Positions 5,724-24,978 of a DNA stretch of 36,355 nt are shown here, one piece after another. Where the stretch lies: the IMG/VR virus record IMGVR_UViG_3300017728_000042, positions 1 through 36,355 of that record. One strand, given 5' to 3'. The stretch's first letter is position 1, and each line of letters starts with the position of its first letter. The stretch is from a virus. Made by a program: the position numbers and the translations under genes. The notes below the pieces were generated by a model. The model had not been told where the DNA came from. It saw only the letters and a program-made list of their open reading frames with translations, and did no database searches.

Positions 5724-6332
5724 TTAAACAATATCTTTAGACTCAATAAGAGTATAAGTAAATGAATTACCCCAAACATCTCTAGCTTGGCGTAAAATTT
5801 TCATAAACACCGCAAAATCTTCATTTGAAGCAATTACTTGACAACCAGCCGACCATTTATCTACTCGAGTTGATTTACCTCCTGTTTTAGCTGTTGCTCT
5901 ATGGATGTTAATCCCAAAAATACCTTTTTCAATATCTTCTTCTAAACAATCATAAACTCCATCAGTATTATCATCACGATAAACTTCTAAAGGTTTAGCT
6001 TGTCTTAATGCCTCATATTTTCCTTGATGTAAACCAATTTTATGAGAACTTCTGTATTGTCCTGGTTTTAAAATTGCTACACCATTTGGGTTTAATAAAT
6101 TTTCTACCCAATGTGTCCCTGGGTCTGTTGTACATTTAAAGCAATGAAATTTCCATTCATTATCTAATTTATAAGATAAAGTTATACAATCATCAAATGC
6201 ATTAGTAACTCTATTTTTAGTTTTTGAATTTCTTACACCTATAATATTAACATCATAATCTCCACCAGTAAAGTATTTATAACCCTTACTAATCATCGTT
6301 TCTTCAATTTGTTCTCTTGTATAACAACTCAT
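5724..6332 (-). CDS. YkuD-like / phage endolysin-type cell-wall enzyme
   Basis: Residues 138-165 contain GIFGINIHRA (His144) and, 17 residues on, WSAGCQV (Ser161, Gly163, Cys164), the His...S-x-G-C signature of the YkuD (L,D-transpeptidase-like) fold. Similar proteins of about 200 aa occur in phages of Bacteroidota as presumed peptidoglycan-cleaving enzymes. Other conserved-looking blocks are THWVENLLNPNGVAILKPGQY and HQGKYEAL. There is no signal peptide, so export would depend on a holin, and a two-TM holin-like gene ends 8 nt upstream. I read this as the lysis pair. Whether it cleaves or transpeptidates cannot be told from sequence. Confidence 0.7.
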   Translation of the reverse strand: MSCYTREQIEETMISKGYKYFTGGDYDVNIIGVRNSKTKNRVTNAFDDCITLSYKLDNEWKFHCFKCTTDPGTHWVENLLNPNGVAILKPGQYRSSHKIGLHQGKYEALRQAKPLEVYRDDNTDGVYDCLEEDIEKGIFGINIHRATAKTGGKSTRVDKWSAGCQVIASNEDFAVFMKILRQARDVWGNSFTYTLIESKDIV

Positions 6333-6339
6333 AATTTAA

Positions 6340-6555
6340 TTATTTTTTTGCAAATTTTTCAACTCCTGCTATTCCAAAACAACCTATTACAACCCATGTA
6401 AATGAATCATATATTGTTTCATTAATTACTAAATCTTTACCTGTGTATCCAGTTAATAAATCTAATAAAGCAAATAATACCATTACTAAAAATGCAATAA
6501 AACCTACTACAGTTTTTTCATTCCACTCATTATCATTTTTAAATATTGACCACAT
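6340..6555 (-). CDS. holin-like two-TM protein, 71 aa
   Basis: The protein has hydrophobic segments at about residues 15-36 (TVVGFIAFLVMVLFALLDLL) and 49-66 (YDSFTWVVIGCFGIAGVE), a charged N-terminus and a Lys-rich tail (KFAKK), which is the layout of small phage holins. It is followed 7 nt later by the YkuD/endolysin-like gene, which has no signal peptide and so needs a membrane pore. This supports a holin-endolysin pair. No specific holin family is recognised, so the call rests on topology, size and context. Confidence 0.6.
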   Translation of the reverse strand: MWSIFKNDNEWNEKTVVGFIAFLVMVLFALLDLLTGYTGKDLVINETIYDSFTWVVIGCFGIAGVEKFAKK

Positions 6556-6604: not shown

Positions 6605-7156
6605 TTATTTAACTGTAGGTTTAGGCCATACAGAAGTTGTAAATGTTATAGTATTATTAATTGATGATGGGTTTCCATCTTTAAATTCTGTTTCATATAC
6701 CCAAGTTGCTGATCTTGCTGTAGCATTACCTGGCATTGGTCCTCCACCATCATTTTCGTTATTTATTTTCATAGTATTACTACCATCAAATCCATATTCA
6801 TAATTCCAATTACCATTACTAGGAGATATACTAGTTAATCCTTTTGGAGGTAAAATTGTACCTATAAATGAAGTTGCCCCTGCTAATGGTTGAGTATTTG
6901 AATTTGAAAGTAATGTATCACCTATAGCAATAGTATCATATACATCATTTTTATCCATACCCATAGTTCTGTGCCAATAAATTAGTTGATCTGTATTGTT
7001 TACTACATATAAAGTAACTGTTGCAGGATCCATTTTTACATTTAAAATTGAACCATCTTCTTGTATCATTCCAGCTAAAGCTGGGTCTACTTTTTTATCA
7101 CTTCCACATCCAATAACTAAGAATGTTGTTAATATAAGGGTAAATAAATTTTTCAT
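6605..7156 (-). CDS. phage-encoded lipoprotein
   Basis: The N-terminus KNLFTLILTTFLVIGC is a type II signal peptide with lipobox VIGC, so Cys17 should be lipidated after export, followed by GSDKK. The mature domain (about 165 aa) is strand-rich and contains VTLYVVNNTDQLIYW and GPMPGNATARSATWVYETEF. It has no recognised enzymatic motif. It lies 8 nt downstream of the T9SS repeat gene and is likely cotranscribed with the other exported proteins. Phage lipoproteins of other systems often block superinfection by acting on receptors or entry; that is an analogy, not evidence. It could equally be a virion-independent host-surface modifier. Confidence 0.7.
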   Translation of the reverse strand: MKNLFTLILTTFLVIGCGSDKKVDPALAGMIQEDGSILNVKMDPATVTLYVVNNTDQLIYWHRTMGMDKNDVYDTIAIGDTLLSNSNTQPLAGATSFIGTILPPKGLTSISPSNGNWNYEYGFDGSNTMKINNENDGGGPMPGNATARSATWVYETEFKDGNPSSINNTITFTTSVWPKPTVK

Positions 7157-7164
7157 TTTTGTTT

Positions 7165-10100
7165 TTATTGTTTAATTATTTTATTTATAAATCTTTTTTC
7201 TTGATAAATTATTATCACGTGATAAATACCAGAAGGAAAATCACTCATATTAATTCTTTTACAATTTTCTTCTTTTAATATTAATTCTCCTGTTATATTA
7301 TATAATTCTACTTTAATATTTAAACGAGTATCAATATTTACTATATCTTGTGCAGGATTTGGATAAACTCTTATACCTAATGTAGATAAATTTTCAAGTG
7401 AAGTAGGCCAACCTAATTCACAATAATTATACATTGATTGGCAACTTACATCCCAGTCATTAGTACAACAATAATTATCAACATCAATTACCCAAGCATA
7501 ACATCCATCATTTAACCAATAAGGTATTCCAGGTCCTCCATAACAACCAGCATCATATAAACAAGCTGTTGTATCTGAAACATTTGCTGTAGGATCATAA
7601 TTATAAGCAGACACGTCAGTACAACCTGAAATTGGTGTAACACATGACCCATCATCAAAACAAGCATCTGGGTCATAATTTACTGCTGTTGGGTCAGTAC
7701 AACCTCCTATATAACAACAAGAATTATCTAGTGTATTTGCTAGTATATTAAAATTAAGTGCTGTATTATCGGTACAACCATATATGTAGGGTATACAAGA
7801 TCCATTGTCTGTATTTGCTGTTGGGTCAAAATTATATTGCGTTGAGTCTGTACATCCATATATGAAAGGAATACACGAACCATTATCAGTATTAACATTA
7901 GGGTCATAATTAAACATTATAGGATCCATACAACCATAGATAAAAGGAATACAACTACCATCATCTGTATTTGCTAATGGATCAAAATTAAACATTGTAG
8001 GATCTGTACAACCTAAAATTGGGTAAATGCATCCTACATTTGTATTTGCTGTTGGGTTAAAATTAAAAGCTGTAGAATCGGTACATCCATAAATATAGGG
8101 TACACATGAACCATCGTCTACATTTGCATTTACATTATAATTAAATGCTGTTGGGTCAGTACAACCTAAAATTGGGTAAATACAACCTATATTTATGTTT
8201 GCTAATGAATCATAGTTTAAAGCTGTAGGATCAGTACATCCTAAAACTTCAGGTACACATGAACCATCATCTGTGTTTGCATTTACATTAAAATTAAAAG
8301 CATTAGGGTCTGTGCAACCTAGAATTGGATAAATACACCCATTATTAGTATTAGCTAAAGAATCATAATTTAATGCTGTTGGGTCAGTACAACCAATTAT
8401 TACAGGAATACAACTACCATCATCTGTATTAGCATTAGTACTATAATTAAAAGCTGTTGGGTCAGTACAACCTAAAATAACTGGTATACATGAACCATTA
8501 TTAGTATTAGCTAATGAATCAAAATTATAAGCTAATGGGTCAGTGCAACCAAATATTATTGGAATACAACTACCATCATCTGTATTTGCTGCTGGGTTAT
8601 AATTAAATTGTGTATCATCCATACATCCTAATATTACAGGTATACAAGACAAAGGATCATTTGTGTTTGCTGAAGGATTATAATTAAATGCAGTTGAATC
8701 CATACATCCTATTATTATAGGTTCACACGATCCATCATCTACATTTGCAGTTGGATTAAAATTAAATGCTAAACTGTTTGTACAACCTAAAATAACTGGA
8801 GTACAAGTATCAGGCATATTAGCTAGACTATCATAATTTAATGCTGTAGGATCCATACAACCTAAAACTCCAGGTGTACAATAATCTCCACAATAAGGTA
8901 CATTATTATATCTATATGGAAATTGTAACATAGGATCTGTCCAAGGATTAGTACCACCAGATAATGTAGTATCACCTTCAGGACCTATTAAAAAGAATCC
9001 ACATTGATTTGCTGTTGTTGATGAATTGCCTGGAGCAAAAAACATTAATTCAACTGGATTTAAAGCACTTAAAGTAATTGTAAAAGATTCTGAATAACCA
9101 TCATTAGGGCCCATCATAAAAGGACCTAATATTGTAGTATCTTGTAATATACCAACCCATGCACCAAACCATCCATCTTCTGCTTCATCTGTAATTACTA
9201 AAGTATAATCACAACTAGGAATTATATCCATTGTATTTGCTAATGGGTCATAATCAGGTGAAGTTGAGTCTATGCAACCAATTACTATAGGAGTTAAACA
9301 AGAACCATCATCAGTGTTAGCTTGTGGGTTATATTCTGTAAATCCTGGAGTAGTACATCCTAAAATAATATTAGGTGTACAAGGAGTTACAGTATAAATT
9401 ACAGAAGTATCATTTCCAAAATTTGCATTACCTGGTAATATTGATAATAAAGTATCACCACATAAAGTTTGAACTAATGCTGTACCATCTACTCCACCAT
9501 AACATGAACCACATAAACCATCTCCAAAAGAATCAAATAAAGTAAATTCTATTACAGTACCATTTGGTACACATATTTCTGATATTACAGGTACTCCTGT
9601 TATAGTATAATTAGGTGATGTTGCTAATACTGTACCTGTTGTATCTGCAATTTCCCAAGAAGTTTCTCCAGCATAAGTATCTGGTGTAATTGTTATTACA
9701 ATATTAGATTCTCCATTTACACAATTTGCAGGAGGTGCTTGACATGAACCATCATCTGTATTTGCCCAAGGATTATAATTCAAAGCTGTTGGATCCATAC
9801 AACCAGGAATACATTCTCCTGTTGTTATTACTAAAGTATCTGTTAAACTTGAATCAGCTAACATTCCTAAAAAGTAATAAGTAGTATTTGGTTGGCTGTT
9901 ACTATACAATAAACCTGTGTTTGAAAAATTTATAGGGTATGGATACCAAGTATTACCTAGAGTATTAGGATCTGTTGTTCTAGTATAATAAGCCATTCTA
10001 CAATTAGGATTAGGCATATTACTCCAATGGTACCAAACTTTATTTTGACCTACATTACAAAAATTTTCTACCCAAAAAGTATCTAACCCACTACATAAAG

Positions 10101-10566
10101 GATAAATACAAGAACTATCTGAAAATGTAGCTGTAGAGTCATAATTTAATGCTATTGGGTCTAAACAACCTCCATGAGGAGGAGCACAAGGAGCAATAGT
10201 TAATGTTTGTACTAAACTATCTCCAAAATTACCTGCAACATACATAATTGTATCTTGACATGAATTACTAATCATAAACCAACCATCAGTACCACCAAAT
10301 TGTGAGGAAGATAAACCATCACCATATTCATCATATATGCTTGCAATAATAGTTCCACCAAGTTGAACAATAGTATCATATAAAGTATTAGGTAGCATAT
10401 TGCTATCATTTTCTATAATAATAGGTGAACCACCTGGAGGGGTAATATCCCAACTTGTTTCAGAAGGATAATTATCTGTCATTAATTGGATATGAATCCA
10501 AGAATTTTGTGTATAACCTAAAAAAGGTATTAAAATTATTAATAATAATAACTGTAGTTTTTTCAT
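7165..10566 (-). CDS. secreted repeat protein with T9SS C-terminal sorting domain
   Basis: This is a 1133-residue protein with signal peptide KKLQLLLLIILIPFLGYT. Three strand-rich domains with flavobacterial-type motifs (ETSWDITPPGG, DEYGDGL; ETSWEIADTTG, DSFGDGL; DEAEDGWFGAW) lie at about 22-130, 285-400 and 450-560. They are separated and followed by about 21 copies of a 25-residue Cys repeat (GCTDPTALNYDSLANTDDGSC-like), 17 of them in tandem. Near the end is a Cys-rich unit (YCCTNDWDVSCQ). The last 70 residues form a type A T9SS sorting domain: VYPNPAQD, VELYNITGEL, FPSGIYHVII, KIIKQ. Such proteins are exported across the outer membrane and anchored on or released from the Bacteroidota cell surface. 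It is probably host-derived and is very unusual for a phage. Adhesion, surface masking or virion decoration are possible roles. Confidence 0.85.
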   Translation of the reverse strand: MKKLQLLLLIILIPFLGYTQNSWIHIQLMTDNYPSETSWDITPPGGSPIIIENDSNMLPNTLYDTIVQLGGTIIASIYDEYGDGLSSSQFGGTDGWFMISNSCQDTIMYVAGNFGDSLVQTLTIAPCAPPHGGCLDPIALNYDSTATFSDSSCIYPLCSGLDTFWVENFCNVGQNKVWYHWSNMPNPNCRMAYYTRTTDPNTLGNTWYPYPINFSNTGLLYSNSQPNTTYYFLGMLADSSLTDTLVITTGECIPGCMDPTALNYNPWANTDDGSCQAPPANCVNGESNIVITITPDTYAGETSWEIADTTGTVLATSPNYTITGVPVISEICVPNGTVIEFTLFDSFGDGLCGSCYGGVDGTALVQTLCGDTLLSILPGNANFGNDTSVIYTVTPCTPNIILGCTTPGFTEYNPQANTDDGSCLTPIVIGCIDSTSPDYDPLANTMDIIPSCDYTLVITDEAEDGWFGAWVGILQDTTILGPFMMGPNDGYSESFTITLSALNPVELMFFAPGNSSTTANQCGFFLIGPEGDTTLSGGTNPWTDPMLQFPYRYNNVPYCGDYCTPGVLGCMDPTALNYDSLANMPDTCTPVILGCTNSLAFNFNPTANVDDGSCEPIIIGCMDSTAFNYNPSANTNDPLSCIPVILGCMDDTQFNYNPAANTDDGSCIPIIFGCTDPLAYNFDSLANTNNGSCIPVILGCTDPTAFNYSTNANTDDGSCIPVIIGCTDPTALNYDSLANTNNGCIYPILGCTDPNAFNFNVNANTDDGSCVPEVLGCTDPTALNYDSLANINIGCIYPILGCTDPTAFNYNVNANVDDGSCVPYIYGCTDSTAFNFNPTANTNVGCIYPILGCTDPTMFNFDPLANTDDGSCIPFIYGCMDPIMFNYDPNVNTDNGSCIPFIYGCTDSTQYNFDPTANTDNGSCIPYIYGCTDNTALNFNILANTLDNSCCYIGGCTDPTAVNYDPDACFDDGSCVTPISGCTDVSAYNYDPTANVSDTTACLYDAGCYGGPGIPYWLNDGCYAWVIDVDNYCCTNDWDVSCQSMYNYCELGWPTSLENLSTLGIRVYPNPAQDIVNIDTRLNIKVELYNITGELILKEENCKRINMSDFPSGIYHVIIIYQEKRFINKIIKQ
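7555..8860 (-). repeat. tandem repeat array encoding Cys-rich 25-aa units
   Basis: Seventeen head-to-tail units of about 75-81 bp lie inside the T9SS protein gene. Each encodes GC-x-D-x-x-x-x-N-[YF]-[DN]-x-x-A-N-x-x-x-x-(S)C followed by a hydrophobic linker such as IPVIL or IPYIY. Two alternating unit types recur (ending NNGCIYPIL and DDGSCIPxIx), which suggests expansion by unequal exchange of a two-unit block. All units stay in frame. Confidence 0.85.
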
Positions 10567-10577
10567 TGTTTTTTATA

Positions 10578-10922
10578 TTAAAAGTTTGACATTATAGTTT
10601 CATCAATCTTATCTTGTACTTCTTCTCTAGTTACTTCTAACTTCATCATAATATTTGCTTGAAATCTTGCTACTTCTTCCCCATCATAAAACACAATTAA
10701 AGTTGGTACAACTACAATTTTGTGTTTTGATTGTAATTTTGGTTGGGTTGAAATATCTATTTTTGCTAAATCACAATCAGTTAATTTATCTAGATATTCA
10801 CATTGAGTTCCTGAAAAAGGGGCATTAAATTCAGCTATAATTAATCCTTCACTCGGTATTACTTGGGATTTTACTACTAAAGAAAATATTAAAAATAATA
10901 GTAATGTAAATAATTTTTTCAT
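10578..10922 (-). CDS. secreted thioredoxin-fold protein lacking the CxxC motif
   Basis: The 114-residue protein has a signal peptide (MKKLFTLLLFLIFSLVVKS). The rest follows the thioredoxin plan: IIAEFNAPFSGTQCEYL in place of the active-site helix, LAKIDIS (strand 3), KIVVVPTLIVFYDGEEVARF with the cis-Pro at 73, and a C-terminal helix. The usual CGPC is replaced by FSGTQC, so the N-terminal catalytic Cys is absent; Cys41 and Cys50 remain and might form a disulfide with each other or with a client. It lies 11 nt upstream of the T9SS repeat gene, whose product is rich in cysteines, so a chaperone-like role in its folding in the periplasm is an attractive but untested idea. Confidence 0.75.
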   Translation of the reverse strand: MKKLFTLLLFLIFSLVVKSQVIPSEGLIIAEFNAPFSGTQCEYLDKLTDCDLAKIDISTQPKLQSKHKIVVVPTLIVFYDGEEVARFQANIMMKLEVTREEVQDKIDETIMSNF

Positions 10923-10929
10923 AAGAATT

Positions 10930-11214
10930 TTATCTTAATTTATCAATCTTTTCTTCCATTCTAACAAGGCGTTCTTTTAACTCTTTAACATCATCTTGAG
11001 TTGTCATAATAGTTTGTCTAATGAGTTGATCTTTCATATCATATTCCATTCTAGTGACATCAGGTGGTGGTGCGATGGGAAGTTCTTTAGCTTCAGCTAT
11101 ATCTGCTTGTAATGTAAACCACATACCTACTAGAGTAAAAATTAATACTCCTATACCTACTAGAGTTTTTATACTTAATTTTAAAGTTGTATCTTCATTT
11201 AATTCTTTTGCCAT
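10930..11214 (-). CDS. single-TM protein with C-terminal coiled coil
   Basis: I start this at the Met at 11214 (MAKELNEDTTLKLS), giving 94 residues, because the leader AACAAAAGATAAAG fits local initiation and the upstream extension to 11253 lies over the preceding Cys-rich gene. One TM helix spans about residues 16-37 (LVGIGVLIFTLVGMWFTL), followed by a Pro-rich hinge (LPIAPPPDV) and a helical, charged tail of about 45 residues (KDQLIRQTIMTTQDDVKEL... EEKIDKLR) that should form a coiled coil. The topology recalls an inner-membrane spanin or a tail-fibre-like anchor, but no family is recognised. It ends 7 nt before the thioredoxin-like gene. Confidence 0.65.
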   Translation of the reverse strand: MAKELNEDTTLKLSIKTLVGIGVLIFTLVGMWFTLQADIAEAKELPIAPPPDVTRMEYDMKDQLIRQTIMTTQDDVKELKERLVRMEEKIDKLR

Positions 11215-11311
11215 CTTTATCTTTTGTTTTATATGGACAATTTTTGCAACCATTTTTGCAACAATATCCCCTTTCTAATAATATTTTTTTACTTAAAGGT
11301 TCATAATTCAT
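11195..11311 (-). CDS. Cys-rich mini-protein, DUF5522-like, 38 aa
   Basis: A 38-codon frame starts at ATG 11309-11311, 4 nt after the stop of the outer-membrane protein gene, and ends at TGA 11195-11197. The product contains RGYCCKNGCKNCPYK, which closely follows the RGYCCGNGCRHCPY signature of the small Bacteroidota DUF5522 proteins, with four Cys that could bind a metal. It lacks the N-terminal half of that family. It overlaps the following TM gene by 20 nt in another frame. It is too short for usual gene callers and would be missed. The function of the family is unknown to me. Confidence 0.65.
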   Translation of the reverse strand: MNYEPLSKKILLERGYCCKNGCKNCPYKTKDKDGKRIK

Positions 11312-11315
11312 TTAA

Positions 11316-12359
11316 TTAGAATATTACATAATTCATCCCAATAGAAAAATCATGCCATTCTCTATTCCAATATTTATTATATTTCCCCTCAGCAAATACT
11401 CCTAAATGTTTATCAAATTTATACCCTAATATTAATCCCCCTGAATAATCATACCATTGACCTTCATTATATTCATGATATGAAAATTCTCCCCCTTGAT
11501 CTAAATGATAAGGCATTAAATTCCCCCATGAATGTAACCAAAATGTTTTTGTATAATGATAATAATCAAATCCTATTATTAATGAATGTTGTATTGTATT
11601 ATTTAATTGATTTCTTTTTTTCTCTGTATAATTTGATAACATTTCTGGTATAGCTATTGCTTCCCACACTTCAGTTGAAGTTGCAACAGAGTTTCCTGAT
11701 GGATCAAAATATTCTACATTACCTTGTCCATCAAATATCATAGTATAACCTTCTTCTAGTGCTAAAAATGTATAATGTAAATTTCCATTTGATAATTTCC
11801 ATTCTTCTAAAGGATCATAACCATAAGGTTCAGATAAACGTTGCACTGCACCTATATTAAATGACAATTTTGGATTATGTTTGTATCTATAACGTTGTGA
11901 TGATTCAAAATACTTAATATCTGCAAAACCATCCGCTAAGTATTCAATTTTAGCTATCCACTTATCATCAACATATCTTAAAAAATGATGTTGATCTAAA
12001 TAATTTTCACCTTGTTGTCTTTTATAATCAACTTCAAATAAAAATTCAAATCCTTTTACTTTACCTACTGTAGTAGCATCAGAAAATGATTTTTCAGTTC
12101 CATCATAAAAAGTGTTTGCACGATTTTCATAACCAAATCTAGCTATTTTTCTAATACCTGCAGTTAAAGAATAATCAAAAGGGGTTTCAATTGTAGTTGT
12201 TTGTAAACCATCAGTAACAGAATATACATCTACATCAGAAATAGATGTTCCCCCATTTGCTGCTGTATAGAATGTAGCAAATTTAAATATTTTTTTTAAG
12301 TCTTGGCTATAAGAATTAAAAGTACTAAATATAAGAATTAAAAATAATAATTTTTTCAT
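11316..12359 (-). CDS. secreted, probable outer-membrane beta-barrel protein
   Basis: The protein has 347 residues with signal peptide KKLLFLILIFSTFNSYS (cleavage before QDLKK). The mature part is rich in aromatic residues and amphipathic strands (FEFLFEVDYKRQQ, WIAKIEYLADGFADIKYF, HSLIIGFDYYHYTKTFWLHSW, LILGYKFDKHLGVFAEGKY) and ends in strand-like HDFSIGMNYVIF with a terminal Phe, the C-terminal signature of outer-membrane barrels. About 12 strands are plausible. No named family is recognised. It heads a run of exported-protein genes (spacing 4 nt to the next). A receptor-masking role, or a virion protein, are both possible; the signal peptide argues for insertion into the host envelope. Confidence 0.7.
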   Translation of the reverse strand: MKKLLFLILIFSTFNSYSQDLKKIFKFATFYTAANGGTSISDVDVYSVTDGLQTTTIETPFDYSLTAGIRKIARFGYENRANTFYDGTEKSFSDATTVGKVKGFEFLFEVDYKRQQGENYLDQHHFLRYVDDKWIAKIEYLADGFADIKYFESSQRYRYKHNPKLSFNIGAVQRLSEPYGYDPLEEWKLSNGNLHYTFLALEEGYTMIFDGQGNVEYFDPSGNSVATSTEVWEAIAIPEMLSNYTEKKRNQLNNTIQHSLIIGFDYYHYTKTFWLHSWGNLMPYHLDQGGEFSYHEYNEGQWYDYSGGLILGYKFDKHLGVFAEGKYNKYWNREWHDFSIGMNYVIF

Positions 12360-12551: not shown

Positions 12552-14405
12552 TTACACTACTTCACAAGCACCCCCAGCACAAGCTGCTTGATCCTTTAAA
12601 TCTGTTTCATCAGTCATTTCAATTATCTTTTTTAAATCAATATTATTTAAATGACTTTCCATTTCTAAGAATTTTTCTTCTGAAATATCTTCAAAAGGAG
12701 CTTGAGTATATGAACCATTATCGTAAGGTAATACAGATAAACCATTAAATGTATTTTTATTTTCCCACATCCATTCTCCAACTGAGTCCCATTCATCTTG
12801 TTTAACTGATATTGTTGCTGAAACATTATTTGTATTTGCTCCTTTTCTATGGCCTGCTTTTACCCATTCCATATTAAACTTTTTAGTTCTTTCTAATAGA
12901 TCCATTGGACTTTCTGTTCTATAAATTGCCCCCTTAGGTGCTTTTTGTGGAACTGAAACTACAGCTTGAATATCAGGTTTAAAGAAATCATCTTCAACTA
13001 ATTCTGGGTGAGATTGAGAAAGATATTGATAGAGTGCTTCATTTTTTCCTAATCTCATACGTCTTACATAAAAATCATTATGCCAAGCATGGATACCTGA
13101 TGAAGTTCCTAATACTAATGAACTAGTTCCTGAAGGTTTTACTGTTGTTACACGAGCTGCTTTATTAACCCCTAAAATATTAGCAACTTCTTCATTTGTT
13201 TTTTTAGCTTCTCTAGCTGCTTCCTCTAAATCATATTTTAAAACTATCCCACTACCAATTCCTGTCATTCCTACCCCCACAAGTGCATCTTTTTCAGTTG
13301 TTCTTTTCCAAATATCACGAAGATAATGGAAATTAGTATAAGCTGCTTGTAAAGTTCCTAAAAATGCACCTGCTTTTACTCTTTTATTTAAATCCTCTTG
13401 AGATTCTATGTTAGAAACATTAATTTCTGTTAAATTACAAAATTGAAATGGTCTTAAAGCAATTTCACAACATGGATTTGTACCCCAATCTTTATCATCT
13501 GAAAAATAAATCCCAGGTTCGCCTGAATTACTAGCAACAATTTTACTCCATAATTCAGAAAAATCTTTTTTAGTTACTTTTGAACGAATAACTACAGCTG
13601 AGTTGTTAGCTCTTCCTCTTTGTGGGTTTAATTCCCACCAAGCACCATGTTTTGAAGTTAACATTTCATTATCATGTAAATCAAATAAAGAAATTAATGC
13701 TGCTCTACGAATACCACCAGATAATACAGCATCAGCAATATGACAAATAATATCATGAGCTTCAATAGATGTTAATTGTTCTCCATCTTCTTTTCTATCT
13801 AATACCTTTTGTATTTGAAATAAACATTCTTTTAATGGTTCTGGGCCTGGTGCTTTACCTCCTACAGTAATTAATTCTGCTCCTTTTGGTCTAATATCAC
13901 GGAAGTCAAAAATAGGTCTTGCAGTTGTTATCCCAAAATAAGATTTTAATAATACTTTAACAGAATCAGCCCATCCTTCAATTGAATCTCCTACTAAAAA
14001 TCTTCTTGTTTTTCTAGGAATTCTAATTTCAGGTAATTTTTCAATGTGATGTTTTTGAACACTATAACCTACACCACAACCCGAAAGTAATAAAAACATT
14101 ACCTCACTAAATGATCTCCAATCATCAATTGGTAAAAAAGAACAATTAAATATTCTAGAATTATTTATATCAATAGGCTTTCCTGCAAACTGTAAACTAC
14201 GCATTGATGGTAAAACTTTTTTATCATATACCATTTTATAAACATCTTCTATTTCATCTTTTAAATCAGGAAATTTTTCTTGGTGCATTTCTTTATTCCT
14301 AGTAACTAACTCTTCCCATGTTTCTCTCCTTTGTTTATTAGGTAAATATTTTGCATATTTGTTATAAACTACAATATCTGATAGTATTTCCTGCGTAATG
14401 TTCAT
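12552..14405 (-). CDS. nrdJ: class II (adenosylcobalamin-dependent) ribonucleotide reductase
   Basis: This 617-residue enzyme reduces ribonucleotides to deoxyribonucleotides for phage DNA synthesis. The active-site features are visible: FNCSFLP near residue 88 (N-terminal redox Cys), SGCGVGYSV, NPCCEIAL (radical Cys and catalytic Glu), FCNLTEIN, the VKPSGTSSLVLGTSSGIH loop and a C-terminal CAGGAC pair that re-reduces the active site, as in monomeric Lactobacillus-type triphosphate reductases. It is shorter than the about 740 aa bacterial enzyme but within the range of phage versions. It does not need oxygen or a separate radical subunit but needs cobalamin from the host. It lies 32 nt after the helicase gene at the end of the replication operon. 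Confidence 0.9.
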   Translation of the reverse strand: MNITQEILSDIVVYNKYAKYLPNKQRRETWEELVTRNKEMHQEKFPDLKDEIEDVYKMVYDKKVLPSMRSLQFAGKPIDINNSRIFNCSFLPIDDWRSFSEVMFLLLSGCGVGYSVQKHHIEKLPEIRIPRKTRRFLVGDSIEGWADSVKVLLKSYFGITTARPIFDFRDIRPKGAELITVGGKAPGPEPLKECLFQIQKVLDRKEDGEQLTSIEAHDIICHIADAVLSGGIRRAALISLFDLHDNEMLTSKHGAWWELNPQRGRANNSAVVIRSKVTKKDFSELWSKIVASNSGEPGIYFSDDKDWGTNPCCEIALRPFQFCNLTEINVSNIESQEDLNKRVKAGAFLGTLQAAYTNFHYLRDIWKRTTEKDALVGVGMTGIGSGIVLKYDLEEAAREAKKTNEEVANILGVNKAARVTTVKPSGTSSLVLGTSSGIHAWHNDFYVRRMRLGKNEALYQYLSQSHPELVEDDFFKPDIQAVVSVPQKAPKGAIYRTESPMDLLERTKKFNMEWVKAGHRKGANTNNVSATISVKQDEWDSVGEWMWENKNTFNGLSVLPYDNGSYTQAPFEDISEEKFLEMESHLNNIDLKKIIEMTDETDLKDQAACAGGACEVV

Positions 14406-20605: not shown

Positions 20606-21550
20606 CTAATATCCACCTCCAGTTGAAGAATTATTATTACTTGTTTGAATTTGATTAGGTATATCATATTCTATAGTTAAATCCCTTACAAATTCAACCT
20701 GTTGTGACTCTCCTGTTTCAATAACTCCTTCTTGATTTAAAACATCAACTAATTCATTTTGATAAAATCTTTTGTAAAATAATCTATTATGAGCCCCTTG
20801 TATGTGAATAGCCCCTTCCATAGGACCTTGATTTTCATGGATATGATAAGATCCTACATAATCTTGACCTGATAAAGTTATTAGTTCTCCTCCTGTAGTA
20901 GTAAGATTGCTAGATTTAGGATATTTAAAATATTCTAAATATTTTTTTCCTAAATAATTTCCTAAACCTTTTTTGTTTATTTCTTTTTCTTTAATAAATA
21001 TAGATCCTTTATTATTATTAAATACTCTATCAATATCTCCTTTTATATACCAATCTAAAGTAAAAGGTATATAATTTTCCCATACCCATGCATTATTTTT
21101 AGTATCAACATTATCATAGGTTTGTTTATTAACTTCTAAATACTCTAATTGATTTATTTTGCAAAGAAAATATCTTATAAACATACCATTTTTATAATCT
21201 TCAGGAGTTGGAAATTCTTGATAATATTGAGGTATTAATTTTAATAAATTATAGTCTGTATCACTTAATATTCCGTATATTTTAAGATCTTTACTTCCCT
21301 CCCAATCTTGATTATATTCTACTATTTTATTTGATACTTCTACAGAATTAGTAGTTGTTTCAGATGAAACTAAAGGAATTGATTGATATATTTCTTCATT
21401 TGGGGGATCATTTTGATCTTTACCCGTATAGGCTTTACCATTAGATAATTGATAGTAAAACCCAGTATAAGGAGAATTAGAACTAACATAATACCATTCA
21501 CCCCCAGGGGTAAATAAATTATCTTTTATTTGTGATTTAGGTATATACAT
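20606..21550 (-). CDS. predicted baseplate or tail structural protein, 314 aa
   Basis: The N-terminus (YIPKSQIKDNLFTPGGEWYY, YTGFYYQLSNGKAYTGKD) and the C-terminal motif QDYVGSYHIHENQGPMEGAIH belong to a type of domain I associate with structural proteins of marine T4-like phages; paired His in H-x-H resemble metal-binding fibre motifs. The middle (about 130-210) is helical and aromatic. Its ATG shares one base with the stop of the hub-protein gene (TAATG), so it is translated with the hub. It ends the tail module. The exact place in the virion is not determined. Confidence 0.6.
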   Translation of the reverse strand: MYIPKSQIKDNLFTPGGEWYYVSSNSPYTGFYYQLSNGKAYTGKDQNDPPNEEIYQSIPLVSSETTTNSVEVSNKIVEYNQDWEGSKDLKIYGILSDTDYNLLKLIPQYYQEFPTPEDYKNGMFIRYFLCKINQLEYLEVNKQTYDNVDTKNNAWVWENYIPFTLDWYIKGDIDRVFNNNKGSIFIKEKEINKKGLGNYLGKKYLEYFKYPKSSNLTTTGGELITLSGQDYVGSYHIHENQGPMEGAIHIQGAHNRLFYKRFYQNELVDVLNQEGVIETGESQQVEFVRDLTIEYDIPNQIQTSNNNSSTGGGY

Positions 21551-24500
21551 TATGCTTGTGAGTTTGGTGGAGGTGCATCTAATTGAGCTACTTGATAATA
21601 AGCATATAATTGGTTTTCAACACTTCTATCAAGTTCATCTCTTAAATCAAAATTTAAATTTTCTTTTTTAGCAGCAGATACAATTTGATCTCTAAAACTA
21701 TTTTTTGGTGTTAGTACAACAAAATAATTTTGGGGACTTTTCATCCTTCCTCTATTTCTTGTTCCTTTTCCTCCATAGATAGGTCTTGTTTTTGTTTTAA
21801 CTGTATTACCAACATTTCCTCCTACCACTGTAATGTATCCCTTATCATAATTTACATCTATTACTATATCCCCATGGCTAGATCCTGTCCATGGATTAGT
21901 ATTCCAAGTTTTATATGGACCTCCAGTTCTATTTTCTACAACAATATCTCCTGGACGTATTCTTGTTGTTTTTGGATTTTTGGCTATCCAAGGATAAGGA
22001 TTACCTGAACCTCCTTCTCTGATTTTTTGTGAATAAATAGCATGGTTTCCTCCATATGGGAAATTTACTCCTGCTTCTTTTATAACATAACTAATAAAAG
22101 CTGCACTCCATGGTGTTGCTGTTACATATTCTCTAAAAGCATTATTTATATCTTGATCTTTTGCTGCTTCTTCTAATTGTTTTTGTTTTTCTTTAGGTAA
22201 TTTTGCAATTGTTTCTTCTTTAACTTCTGCTTTTGTTTTAAATCTTGGAACAGATAAAGTATCTAATGTTGTTGACCATGTATTTACATTAACTTCATGA
22301 TTAATACCTTTAACTATAATATCAACACTATTTTCTTCATAAGAGGGAGGGAGTATATCATCTGTTATTCTAAATTTTTCAAATAATTTCATTCCTGAAA
22401 GTCCATCCATTGATAAATTTAAATTAAAAGGAAGGAAAAATGGTTGAGGACATATTAATCTTTCAGCAGATACCCCATGTACTATTTTAATATAACTTGT
22501 ATAATTTTCTGTTAAATTTCTTGTTGTATCTGGATGGAAATTAAACATATTTCCCCCACTCCCATCATTACCATATGCTGTATAAACCTCTTGATATGGA
22601 CCATAACCCTCACTACCCCCAACAGAAGCTGCATAAGATATTTTTTCTTTCCATATTGTTTTTGCTTTTTGGATAGGTGTAGGTTTTTCATTATTATCTG
22701 AGGATTCAACAGCATCTATTTTTTCAGGTATAATTCTATCTATTAAACCTTTATTATAATTAGAAAAAGATGTTCCATTTCCTTGAAGATTAGTTCCAGA
22801 AGCTTGGGATCCAATAGAAATTAATGTTGCAAAGTTTGAAGGTATTTCAGCATCTAACCCAATATTAGTAATAAATGATCCAGTAGTGTTTTGTTGTTTA
22901 AAAGCAGTTACACCATTTTCTGAAGGGATTTCAGCTCCTCGTTTTACACCAAAAACATTAAATGTAGTAAATGATTTATCATCAACTTGTACAAGTCCAG
23001 GCATTGGAGACTCATCATATATTTTTATAATACCTGTATCTTCATCATGTATAACTCTAAAATTATTAATACTACCCATAGATTCATTTACTCCTTGTAA
23101 TATAGTATTTAAATACGATATAACAGATATTGCTCCTTCTTCATTTTTAGGGGTTGATGCTAGTGCTCCAGCTGCAAATCTTAAATTTATCATTACATTA
23201 GCTAATCTTCCTACAAAAGGATTATCTTCAACAAAAAAGTTTGTTGAATTTGTTAACATTTCATTAATAGAATTAGATTGGTCACTATTATATTCTGTAG
23301 TTTTAAATTGAATAACTCCTTTTATATCCGCTGAGGTCCAAGGTACTATACATATTTGAGGGTTTGTTGAAAAACCTGGAGGAACTATTAACATATAATT
23401 TGTATCGGATGTTACACCATCACCATATTTAAAATCAAATTTAATCATTTTAGTTCTAGGGTTATTACCTTTTCCCTTTTTTGAAAATAAATTACAATTA
23501 TCTTCAATTATTTTTAATAACGCCGCAAATTTAATATAACCACTTTTTAAAGCTAAACCTCCTCCTTCTATGTCTCTTTCACCATTATAAGTTTTATTTA
23601 TATAACATCCCCCATTTTTTACACCATTTACTCTAGGAATGATTTTTGCTTCTTCAACAGAAGCATTTACATTTAAAGATACAAATTGTTGATATATTTT
23701 AAAAAATTCTTTATTTAATTTAGTATCATTTTTATTAGCTAATAAGGGATTCATATCAGCATTTTGTTGTCCAACATTATTAGCATTTTGTTCATCTGCT
23801 ATTCTTAAATCATATTTTTCTTGACAATAGGCTTTTAATTTTGCAGGTGTTGTAGTTTTTGTATTATAAGGATCAAATATTTGTTTTCCTCCTTCTCTAT
23901 AAGCTCTTATTTCTTGTTTTGCTTTTTCAGGATAATGATATGCATTTTGATATTGAGAATATATTGCTACTCCTGCTGCTATACCAAATAACTCTTTAGC
24001 AAATTCTTCTATACTTATAGGAGTTTCTGAGGGAGATTTATTACTATCACCTTTACCTTTATCAGGATCTGTTACATTTAGTTTTAAGGAATCCATAATA
24101 TTACCCATTCCTATTAAATCTACTGAAATGTTATATGTACCATCTGAATCAAAAGACCATTTAAAATTAGATACTTTTCCATAAACTGCTTCGTAATTAC
24201 CCTGATATAGTTTTCTTTCTTCACTAATTTTTCTATACATCTCATATTGATTTTTTTCTCCAGGAAAACTATCAGGATTTAGTAAAAAATCTAAGGGTGT
24301 TGTAGTAAAATTAGGCCAATTTTCAATTTGACCTAAATTATTTAAATAAGCAGTCCAACCAAATTCTAATAAAAGAGTATATCCAGGTCTTAAATATAAA
24401 ACATCTAATAATGAAAATTGGGATTTACTAAAACATTTTATATTTATTGTTGCTTTACTTAAAGCTCCATTATTGTAATATGTAGTTGTAGCAGATTCAA

Positions 24501-24978
24501 TCCCAGGCATAGGAACATAACCTCTTTCACTAATACCCCCCCAACCATAAGCACCTTCAAATAATTGTTTTCCATTATTACCAAAAGAACGATTTACCCC
24601 TGATGAATAATTTAATCCAGCTTTAGCACCATCATATACTGCTGTAGTGTATTTTTCTTTATCTATTGTAAAGGAATCATCAGAAACTGATGCTGCTCCT
24701 CCAAAAAGTATAAAATTTTTAGCTAAATTATCATTTAATATTTGTTCTTTTATAAAACCAGCTTGTATTAATTTCCAATAAACACTATCATCAGGTACTC
24801 CATTAATTACCTTACCTGTAATATTAACTGAACTTGCTAATCTTAGCCAAGGGGTTTTAGAAGAATAATATTTTAAAGCACTAGAGTTAATATTTGAATA
24901 TTGACCTAAAGCAGTTTGTCTAATATCTACTTGACCTTTTACCCACTCCTCAAAGGGATTGCCTATGATATTACTCAT
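21550..24978 (-). CDS. large baseplate hub protein with C-terminal NlpC/P60-like (DUF2272-type) domain
   Basis: The 1142-residue protein has an N-terminal region (about 150-300) with LDVLYLRPGYTLLLEFGW and GKVSNFKWSFDSDGTYN, typical of gp27-like tail hub proteins. Around 840-900 is VKGINHEVNVNTWSTTLDTL, again a hub-type strand pattern. Residues 945-1095 form a cell-wall peptidase-like domain: TPWSAAFISYVIKEAG, RPGDIVVEN, SSHGDIVIDV. The nucleophile position holds Ser958 instead of Cys (as in DUF2272), with His1035. This would replace the T4 gp5 lysozyme that lets the tail cross peptidoglycan. The gene overlaps the gp53-like gene by 4 nt and the next structural gene by 1 nt. Confidence 0.75.
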   Translation of the reverse strand: MSNIIGNPFEEWVKGQVDIRQTALGQYSNINSSALKYYSSKTPWLRLASSVNITGKVINGVPDDSVYWKLIQAGFIKEQILNDNLAKNFILFGGAASVSDDSFTIDKEKYTTAVYDGAKAGLNYSSGVNRSFGNNGKQLFEGAYGWGGISERGYVPMPGIESATTTYYNNGALSKATINIKCFSKSQFSLLDVLYLRPGYTLLLEFGWTAYLNNLGQIENWPNFTTTPLDFLLNPDSFPGEKNQYEMYRKISEERKLYQGNYEAVYGKVSNFKWSFDSDGTYNISVDLIGMGNIMDSLKLNVTDPDKGKGDSNKSPSETPISIEEFAKELFGIAAGVAIYSQYQNAYHYPEKAKQEIRAYREGGKQIFDPYNTKTTTPAKLKAYCQEKYDLRIADEQNANNVGQQNADMNPLLANKNDTKLNKEFFKIYQQFVSLNVNASVEEAKIIPRVNGVKNGGCYINKTYNGERDIEGGGLALKSGYIKFAALLKIIEDNCNLFSKKGKGNNPRTKMIKFDFKYGDGVTSDTNYMLIVPPGFSTNPQICIVPWTSADIKGVIQFKTTEYNSDQSNSINEMLTNSTNFFVEDNPFVGRLANVMINLRFAAGALASTPKNEEGAISVISYLNTILQGVNESMGSINNFRVIHDEDTGIIKIYDESPMPGLVQVDDKSFTTFNVFGVKRGAEIPSENGVTAFKQQNTTGSFITNIGLDAEIPSNFATLISIGSQASGTNLQGNGTSFSNYNKGLIDRIIPEKIDAVESSDNNEKPTPIQKAKTIWKEKISYAASVGGSEGYGPYQEVYTAYGNDGSGGNMFNFHPDTTRNLTENYTSYIKIVHGVSAERLICPQPFFLPFNLNLSMDGLSGMKLFEKFRITDDILPPSYEENSVDIIVKGINHEVNVNTWSTTLDTLSVPRFKTKAEVKEETIAKLPKEKQKQLEEAAKDQDINNAFREYVTATPWSAAFISYVIKEAGVNFPYGGNHAIYSQKIREGGSGNPYPWIAKNPKTTRIRPGDIVVENRTGGPYKTWNTNPWTGSSHGDIVIDVNYDKGYITVVGGNVGNTVKTKTRPIYGGKGTRNRGRMKSPQNYFVVLTPKNSFRDQIVSAAKKENLNFDLRDELDRSVENQLYAYYQVAQLDAPPPNSQA

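Follow-up and report, generated by a model that had tools for sequence, protein, structure and literature searches.

The IMG/VR virus record IMGVR_UViG_3300017728_000042 (positions 1 to 36,355; this whole stretch of 36,355 nucleotides is called the window) carries a T4-type gene set: ribonucleotide reductase, DnaB helicase, exonuclease, a UvsX-like recombinase, a single-stranded DNA-binding protein, tail tube and tail sheath, with a partial match to DNA polymerase. An earlier annotation made from the sequence alone (the first-pass annotation) had described a T4-like phage. Within this set lies a gene for a long repeat protein, a putative secreted cargo of the host type IX secretion system (T9SS). 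It is flanked on one side by genes for a lipoprotein, a holin-like protein (c4) and an endolysin-family protein (c6), and on the other by three envelope genes (c3, c1, and c2; Table 1).

Table 1. Features of the repeat protein gene and its neighbors in the window (aa, amino acids; CTD, C-terminal sorting domain).
Feature	Coordinates	Strand	Description	Basis
Repeat protein, putative secreted T9SS cargo	7165..10566	-	1133 aa; signal peptide, N-terminal beta domains, repeats, Cys-rich domain, CTD	
Signal peptide	10507..10566	-	residues 1-20 (MKKLQLLLLIILIPFLGYTQ)	inspection and crude rules
N-terminal region	8872..10506	-	residues 21-565; several beta domains, includes GC motifs 1-4	AlphaFold model, alignment, dN
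Tandem GC-x-D...DDGSC repeats	7543..8862	-	residues 569-1008; 17 of the protein's 21	period 75-81 nt
Cys-rich domain	7402..7545	-	residues 1008-1055 (CYAWVIDVDxYCCxxxWDxxCQ...YNYC)	alignment
Type A T9SS CTD (by profile and predicted fold)	7168..7368	-	residues 1067-1133	TIGR04183, PF18962, Foldseek, sequence search
c3	10578..10922	-	114 aa; thioredoxin fold without CxxC, signal peptide	Pfam, PDB profile search, alignment
c1	10930..11253	-	107 aa as listed; single transmembrane helix and coiled coil	topology by inspection
c2	11316..12359	-	347 aa; predicted outer-membrane beta-barrel, signal peptide by inspection	model and fold matches
Lipoprotein	6605..7156	-	183 aa; LVIGC lipobox; adjoins the repeat protein in near copies of the window alone	inspection
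c4	6340..6555	-	71 aa; two hydrophobic helices, holin-like	inspection only
c6	5724..6332	-	endolysin-family protein (phrog_33083, phrog_3000)	PHROG match
Ribonucleotide reductase	12552..14405	-	phrog_367; upstream edge of the envelope cassette	PHROG match

The first-pass annotation had read this gene as a signal peptide, about 21 repeats and a type A sorting signal, and each part was borne out. The N-terminus reads by inspection as a clear Sec signal peptide and passes our crude rules for one. Among homologues with a visible start, 107 of 107 pass these rules in their loose form and 94 of 107 in their strict form; for other genes in the same loci the figures are 320 and 180 of 619. The protein has 66 cysteines and 21 GC-[TMILV]-[DNT] motifs, the last 17 of them in tandem. 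One repeat stretch also gave weak hits to T4_Y03C (Pfam, under the cut-off) and phrog_2192, which we set aside. Within the C-terminal 110 residues, the Cys-rich domain is the best conserved portion of the alignment.

A profile search of the C-terminus, which the first-pass annotation had proposed as a check, gave 37–43 bits for TIGR04183 (cut-off 23) and 45–51 bits for PF18962 (cut-off 27). The E-values (2e-9 to 2e-13) are far beyond chance, the match lies at the extreme C-terminus (residues 1067-1131/1133 of 1133), and the same domain recurs in homologues. AlphaFold folds the last 68 residues into a domain of seven strands, for which block means of the predicted local distance difference test (pLDDT) are 58–84. 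Foldseek aligned this predicted domain with 8glk_D, the CTD of the substrate NucA of Flavobacterium johnsoniae within the Flavobacterium T9SS complex (PDB 8glk), with a TM-score of 0.75 by target, 2.3 Å, and 33% identity over 73 columns (probability 1.00, E 3.7e-4). This match ranked 36th; the rows above it are generic beta-domain strings that match the long N-terminal part of the protein. A plain sequence search also found 8glk_D, together with a lipase CTD (E 1.1e-4). By sequence and predicted fold, the C-terminus is thus a type A T9SS sorting domain. The likeness to NucA is confined to the CTD: NucA is a cellular nuclease, whereas Pfam and TIGR profile scans recognized no enzyme domain in the repeat protein. 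The PorV shuttle recognizes type A CTDs, and proteins so tagged end up in the medium or on the surface (PMC12618676, PMC9143113).

The gene is found in the same setting in other assemblies. Contigs from other metagenomes (labeled L002, L003, and L008) carry it, with the same flanks, at 100% identity, and homologues occur in other virus records at 36–89% identity (best segment), in records of up to 231 kb. The records are not all independent: L002, L003, L008, and L020 are copies or near copies of the window, other sets include near copies, and our three locus sets overlap. Because the gene and its flanks recur at 100% identity in other metagenomes and each phage record with the domain holds a single CTD, we take the contig, on sequence grounds, to be a T4-like phage and not a phage–host chimera, which the first-pass annotation had named as a refuting result. 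The related idea that a host gene is seen here by mistake, through recent uptake of host DNA or an assembly chimera, can point to similar repeat-rich proteins in marine Flavobacteriales/Bacteroidetes genomes (L115, L116, L119, and L120). Against it stand the shared flanks in independent assemblies, and homologues within virus records that diverge to below 40% identity. A scan of 84,980 species genomes returned 11 stretches that fit the pattern; six encode a relative, and two of these six are phage contigs in genome bins. Among 395 genomes of the order to which L119 belongs, 2 contain the neighboring gene c2, in each case on a contig that looks phage-like by eye. We consider a host source extremely unlikely and rejected it on the independent copies, the homologues in virus records, and the single CTD per record.

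PF18962 was detected in 30 of the first 33 virus records with a homologue (27 over the cut-off), exactly once in each. The other three are L009, where the gene is cut at the contig end, L012, which has a short tail, and L034, which has no CTD. Five Bacteroidota genomes gave 21, 28, 15, 44, and 30 matches each. A scan of IMG/VR for relatives of c2 yielded at least 579, of which the best 80 were read; 7 of these had been found earlier, and among the remaining 73 records, 50 are longer than 34 kb. PF18962 occurs in 27 of these 50, once in each. The 23 without it comprise 16 with a short tail (one of which, L086, falls outside the repeat-pattern criterion used for loci), 5 with less than 2 kb on one side of c2, 1 with a cut gene (L084), and 1 with an early stop (L080). 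A wider scan indicates that at least 564 stretches, among 600 listed, encode a relative of the repeat protein, some perhaps by their repeats alone. Among 128 distinct homologues with an intact end, hidden Markov models (HMMs) assigned 105 to a long CTD and 22 to a shorter tail, and 1 has an early stop; the HMMs ("lc" and A4) were derived from phage tails, which makes their phage counts partly circular. The Pfam count is free of this circularity: Pfam by itself detected PF18962 in 105 of 129 homologue tails, the window included, whose row is identical to that of L002 over the scanned stretch.

Compared with its homologue in L004, the repeat protein has a nonsynonymous rate (dN) of 0.063 and a synonymous rate (dS) of 0.381 over the whole gene, and 0.042 and 0.198 over the CTD. 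The rate dN was lower than dS in five of five comparisons (L004, L005, L007, L049, and L051), CTD included. The N-terminal region is the fastest-changing part relative to L049 and L051 (dN 0.48 and 0.46, vs. 0.08 for the Cys-rich domain), and the CTD is faster relative to L005 and L007. On these comparisons, the repeat protein is encoded by a conserved phage gene under purifying selection.

Phage T9SS cargo has precedents, which qualifies the first-pass annotation's view of it as unexpected: the sorting domain is indeed present in this phage, but such domains are not unheard of in phages. The 76-kb Cryophage has three highly variable T9SS cargo genes, encoding an endoglucanase, a glycoside hydrolase, and a PA14 domain, in what the authors call a unique occurrence; the roles suggested there are secretion of virulence factors, added enzymes, competition, and superinfection exclusion (Bellas et al., 2020, PMC7468147). 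As in Cryophage, the genes described here end in type A T9SS sorting domains, the host machine is presumed, and exclusion is suggested; unlike the three variable genes of Cryophage, we find one conserved repeat protein with regular partners in two phage types. T9SS sorting domains are also described in Bacteroidetes phages of gut phage cluster 2, one of them fused to BACON domains (de Jonge et al., 2019, PMC6949934). There, unlike here, the BACON repeats lie beside the head section, and the accessible part of that report mentions no barrel or thioredoxin-fold partner. Our literature search, with subscription papers mostly outside its reach, found no further report of phage T9SS cargo and none of the present module. 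New here are the conservation of the cargo gene, its module, and its spread over two phage types.

These two types emerged from the long records of the cargo-bearing c2 clade, 50 in number: 7 have a T4-type tail sheath, 38 a phrog_6547 portal, none both, and 5 neither. The nearest sheath to that of the window belongs to Flavobacterium phage vB_FspM_immuto_2-6A (hereafter immuto), with 54% identity over 70% of the protein. One phrog_6547-type portal matches 87 named phage records, of which 86 are phages of Flavobacteriia (68 of Flavobacterium, 15 of Cellulophaga, 2 of Tenacibaculum, and 1 of Maribacter) and one is an unnamed member of Caudoviricetes. By these sequence matches, the cargo gene and its module are spread over contractile-tailed phages and relatives of Flavobacterium and Cellulophaga phages, and the portal matches and the immuto sheath point to hosts among Flavobacteriia.

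A tblastn search of 50,697 named phage records with the repeat protein gave partial matches in 6, and a second CTD query gave 2 records. Residues 483-637 match a protein of cyanophage S-CAM3 at 31% identity, and that protein is annotated as a virion structural protein in one record. This bears on the possibility that the repeats decorate the virion and the CTD is a leftover or a folding domain, as does L034, whose similar repeats lie in a 2601-aa open reading frame (ORF) without a CTD. The S-CAM3 match covers 14% of the query, and full-length similarity to repeat-bearing virion proteins of cyanophages was not encountered. Moreover, a signal peptide would take the protein out of the cytoplasm, where heads and tails assemble; the CTD has a dN lower than its dS in all five comparisons; and host proteins use both tail types. 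Virion coating, which the first-pass annotation had listed among possible roles beside masking receptors and holding cells together, is the least favored of the proposed roles and very improbable. As separate observations, the L034 ORF (L034:1-7806) is open at its 5′ end, has GC-x-D repeats and no T9SS tail, and is perhaps a virion protein, and a sequence similar to the repeat region is present in a single-cell marine virus of the Kyanoviridae (MH319765.1:63059-63352).

The genes c1, c2, and c3 accompany the repeat protein in phages whose other neighbors differ. In the first c2 clade, the repeat protein is present in 35 of 35 loci that extend 5 kb or more on both sides of c2; the 15 of 80 loci that lack it all fall short of 5 kb on one side. 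In 50,697 named phage records, window c1, c2, and c3 had no tblastn match at E 1e-3. Homologues of c1 share the start MAKELNEDT, which would shorten the protein to 94 aa. Aligned c2 homologues are 54–92% identical to that of the window. The AlphaFold model of c2 (mean pLDDT 70, predicted template modeling score 0.65) matched NanC in Foldseek at 3.6e-6, and the best VIA Z was 11.3, to general barrels; c2 is therefore predicted to be an outer-membrane beta-barrel. Its assignment to a specific known porin was dropped, as the barrel matches are generic, and a search against PDB sequences gave no match up to E 1. The c3 protein scores 25.9 with PF00085 (cut-off 23.5) and has a profile match to 2vim at 4.5e-8. 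No CxxC was present at the active-site position in 16 aligned homologues, so a role as thiol oxidoreductase for the Cys-rich repeats is unlikely. A single cysteine, in the motif LxDC, is nearly invariant. A gene for a protein of about 2000 aa precedes c2 in many loci; two examples were scanned and had no PHROG match.

A second large c2 clade, more distant (L145-L224), was reached via a contig in a genome bin from the order of L119, and 81 of its loci were read, with c1 in 73 and c3 in 77. This clade lacks the cargo, as detailed below, and it was on this account that c1, c2, and c3 were rejected as genes specific to the T9SS. On a c2 tree (FastTree, 140 rows), presence of the cargo requires one change over 97 labeled rows, 62 with cargo, all in the first clade, and 35 without, all in the second. 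This count excludes 43 edge rows; if these are treated as a third state of their own, 31 changes are required. A count of changes in genome context on the same tree (22) was not used, since short loci hide context. Cargo and barrel lineage thus appear from the sequences to travel together, yet the c1-c2-c3 trio also exists alone.

We put the probability at about 0.65 that the repeat protein is a phage-encoded type A cargo of the host T9SS, made within a phage envelope module, with superinfection exclusion as its most likely use. It is highly probable that the protein works as a T9SS cargo and is displayed or released at the cell surface; that exclusion is its main job is a tentative proposal with somewhat less than even odds. 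Sec would carry the protein to the periplasm, and the T9SS translocon of the host, whose presence is an assumption, would move it across the outer membrane. The infected cell might then retain it on its surface as a long molecule of many domains, rich in disulfides and perhaps placed next to c2 or on it. On a surface altered in this way, further phages, or progeny that meet doomed cells or debris, would no longer adsorb. A long, disulfide-rich modular protein with variable outer domains in some relatives and a barrel partner fits such a change of the cell surface. Small membrane proteins and enzymes are among the means by which phages change the surface of their hosts, and Flavobacterium mutants in the T9SS or in gliding are phage-resistant. 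If the repeat protein depends on the phylum-specific T9SS, phages would be shown to use host protein export during infection. The gene would also provide a signature of the host group, and of its T9SS, for many uncultivated marine phages.

Several results weigh against this reading. We predict export and localization from sequence, and assume a T9SS in the host. The repeats are poorly modeled by AlphaFold, and mean pLDDT over the whole chain is 53. The CTD is not the most constrained part of the protein: its dN of 0.359 (L005) and 0.412 (L007) exceeds that of the N-terminal region (0.142 and 0.204), and dS relative to L007 is only 0.749. In the second c2 clade, none of the 81 loci has a CTD or a protein with at least three GC motifs, and cargo is absent from all 38 of them that extend 5 kb or more on both sides; PF18962 was found in none of the 48 records longer than 30 kb among 80 of this clade. 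The trio therefore cannot exist solely for the cargo. Nor could c2 be assigned to the PorP/SprF barrels that anchor type B cargo: hhalign gave a probability of 1.5% vs. 12 PorP-like (PF11751) proteins, and the positive control for this comparison, the second c2 clade, gave 100%. In two reports, type B surface cargo is encoded with an outer-membrane barrel, much as here (PMC9143113, PMC12618676), but the CTD of the repeat protein is type A by profile and c2 is not detectably PorP/SprF.

A further reading is that unrelated marine Flavobacteriia phages share an envelope-spanning display unit. In this unit, c1 would be an inner-membrane coiled coil, c3 a periplasmic thioredoxin fold without active-site cysteines, and c2 a dedicated barrel that receives or anchors the T9SS-exported cargo, and the cargo-free clade would be older or adapted to hosts without a T9SS. 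If so, the phage would bring its own shuttle or anchor and divert host secretion to coat the cell that it is killing. We regard this extension as unlikely. The same three genes could instead form an envelope-disruption complex, with c1 as a spanin-like component and the cargo helping to open or detach the surface late in infection. By inspection, c1 is shaped like an inner-membrane spanin, c2 is a predicted outer-membrane barrel, and genes of the endolysin family and holin-like genes lie close to the module in the window and in some relatives. The endolysin-family gene c6 is, however, present in only 11 of 80 cargo-clade loci, a figure to be read with the facts that many loci are short and that the search covered the family of c6 alone. 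Lysis systems are not known to include a large, repeat-rich protein of the surface, which also counts against this role, and we judge it distinctly unlikely.

Returning to surface change, we rank exclusion of other phages as first choice and adhesion second. As an adhesin, the T9SS-displayed protein would bind infected cells to one another, to polysaccharide or to particles, or keep progeny near. Foldseek gave weak likenesses to adhesins and surface glycan-binding proteins (GhpA of Aureispira and SGBP-B) among many unrelated beta proteins, and immuto encodes a cohesin and CTD protein near a secreted C-type lectin. These fold matches are generic beta-domain strings at low model confidence, and a Pfam scan recognized no carbohydrate-binding family in the repeat protein; we regard adhesion as the main role as doubtful.

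The first-pass annotation had also suggested searching phages for other CTD proteins, and these were found in many virus records, in immuto, and in LR756502. Immuto (MW353175), a phage of Flavobacterium sp. LMO8, has a single match to PF18962 across 160 kb, in gene immuto26A_15. The product (243 aa) has a signal peptide by eye, a cohesin domain (5.9e-9), and a CTD (2.4e-8), and is annotated only as a cohesin-domain protein. Its gene comes two genes after that of a signal-peptide-bearing C-type lectin, and the ribonucleotide reductase gene is about 3 kb away. Immuto, the closest cultured phage by its sheath, thus resembles the window in having one CTD protein and a ribonucleotide reductase gene nearby, but the cargo domains (cohesin) are different. 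No c2 was found in immuto, in a search without a positive control. The uncultured 642-kb phage LR756502 encodes a 186-aa protein with a signal peptide and a CTD (L122:5653-6213). Given this protein and immuto26A_15, phage T9SS cargo extends beyond the family of the repeat protein. Since cultured immuto on Flavobacterium sp. LMO8 carries its own CTD protein, phage use of the T9SS is testable now.

Three genes lie in a row at MW353175.1:10527-13422 (L227:2528-5423), encoding the C-type lectin, a signal-peptide protein without a Pfam match, and the cohesin and CTD protein. By eye, the lectin has a signal peptide and a dockerin-like tail; the row is possibly a phage-made cohesin–dockerin surface complex. 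An uncultured 635-kb phage gave a weak CTD-like tblastn match (LR745206.1:298423-298620, E 3e-3).

The shorter tail seen in some homologues (TDILGR...YxDGTVEKK; for example, in L062 and L066) has no Pfam match in these phage proteins. In the five Bacteroidota genomes scanned for PF18962, a profile of it matched 8, 24, 0, 23, and 18 times. We read 20 host stretches, chosen mostly among the stronger of these 73 matches; their 32 rows represent 29 ORFs and 3 weak extra rows within the same ORFs. The tail ends at most 4 residues from the C-terminus in 29 of 29 host ORFs, and most of those with a visible start have a signal peptide by eye. From its sequence context, the short tail may be a T9SS tail, and maybe a separate signal class common to phage and Flavobacteriales/Bacteroidetes proteins. 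A Cryomorphaceae protein (L119:3572-4948) has a signal peptide and this short tail, and is near a repeat-rich region that was read as many broken frames.

Elsewhere in the window, the tail gene region encodes a 1142-aa protein (21550-24978, minus strand) with a DUF2272 domain at residues 949-1068 (PF10030, 2.7e-18).

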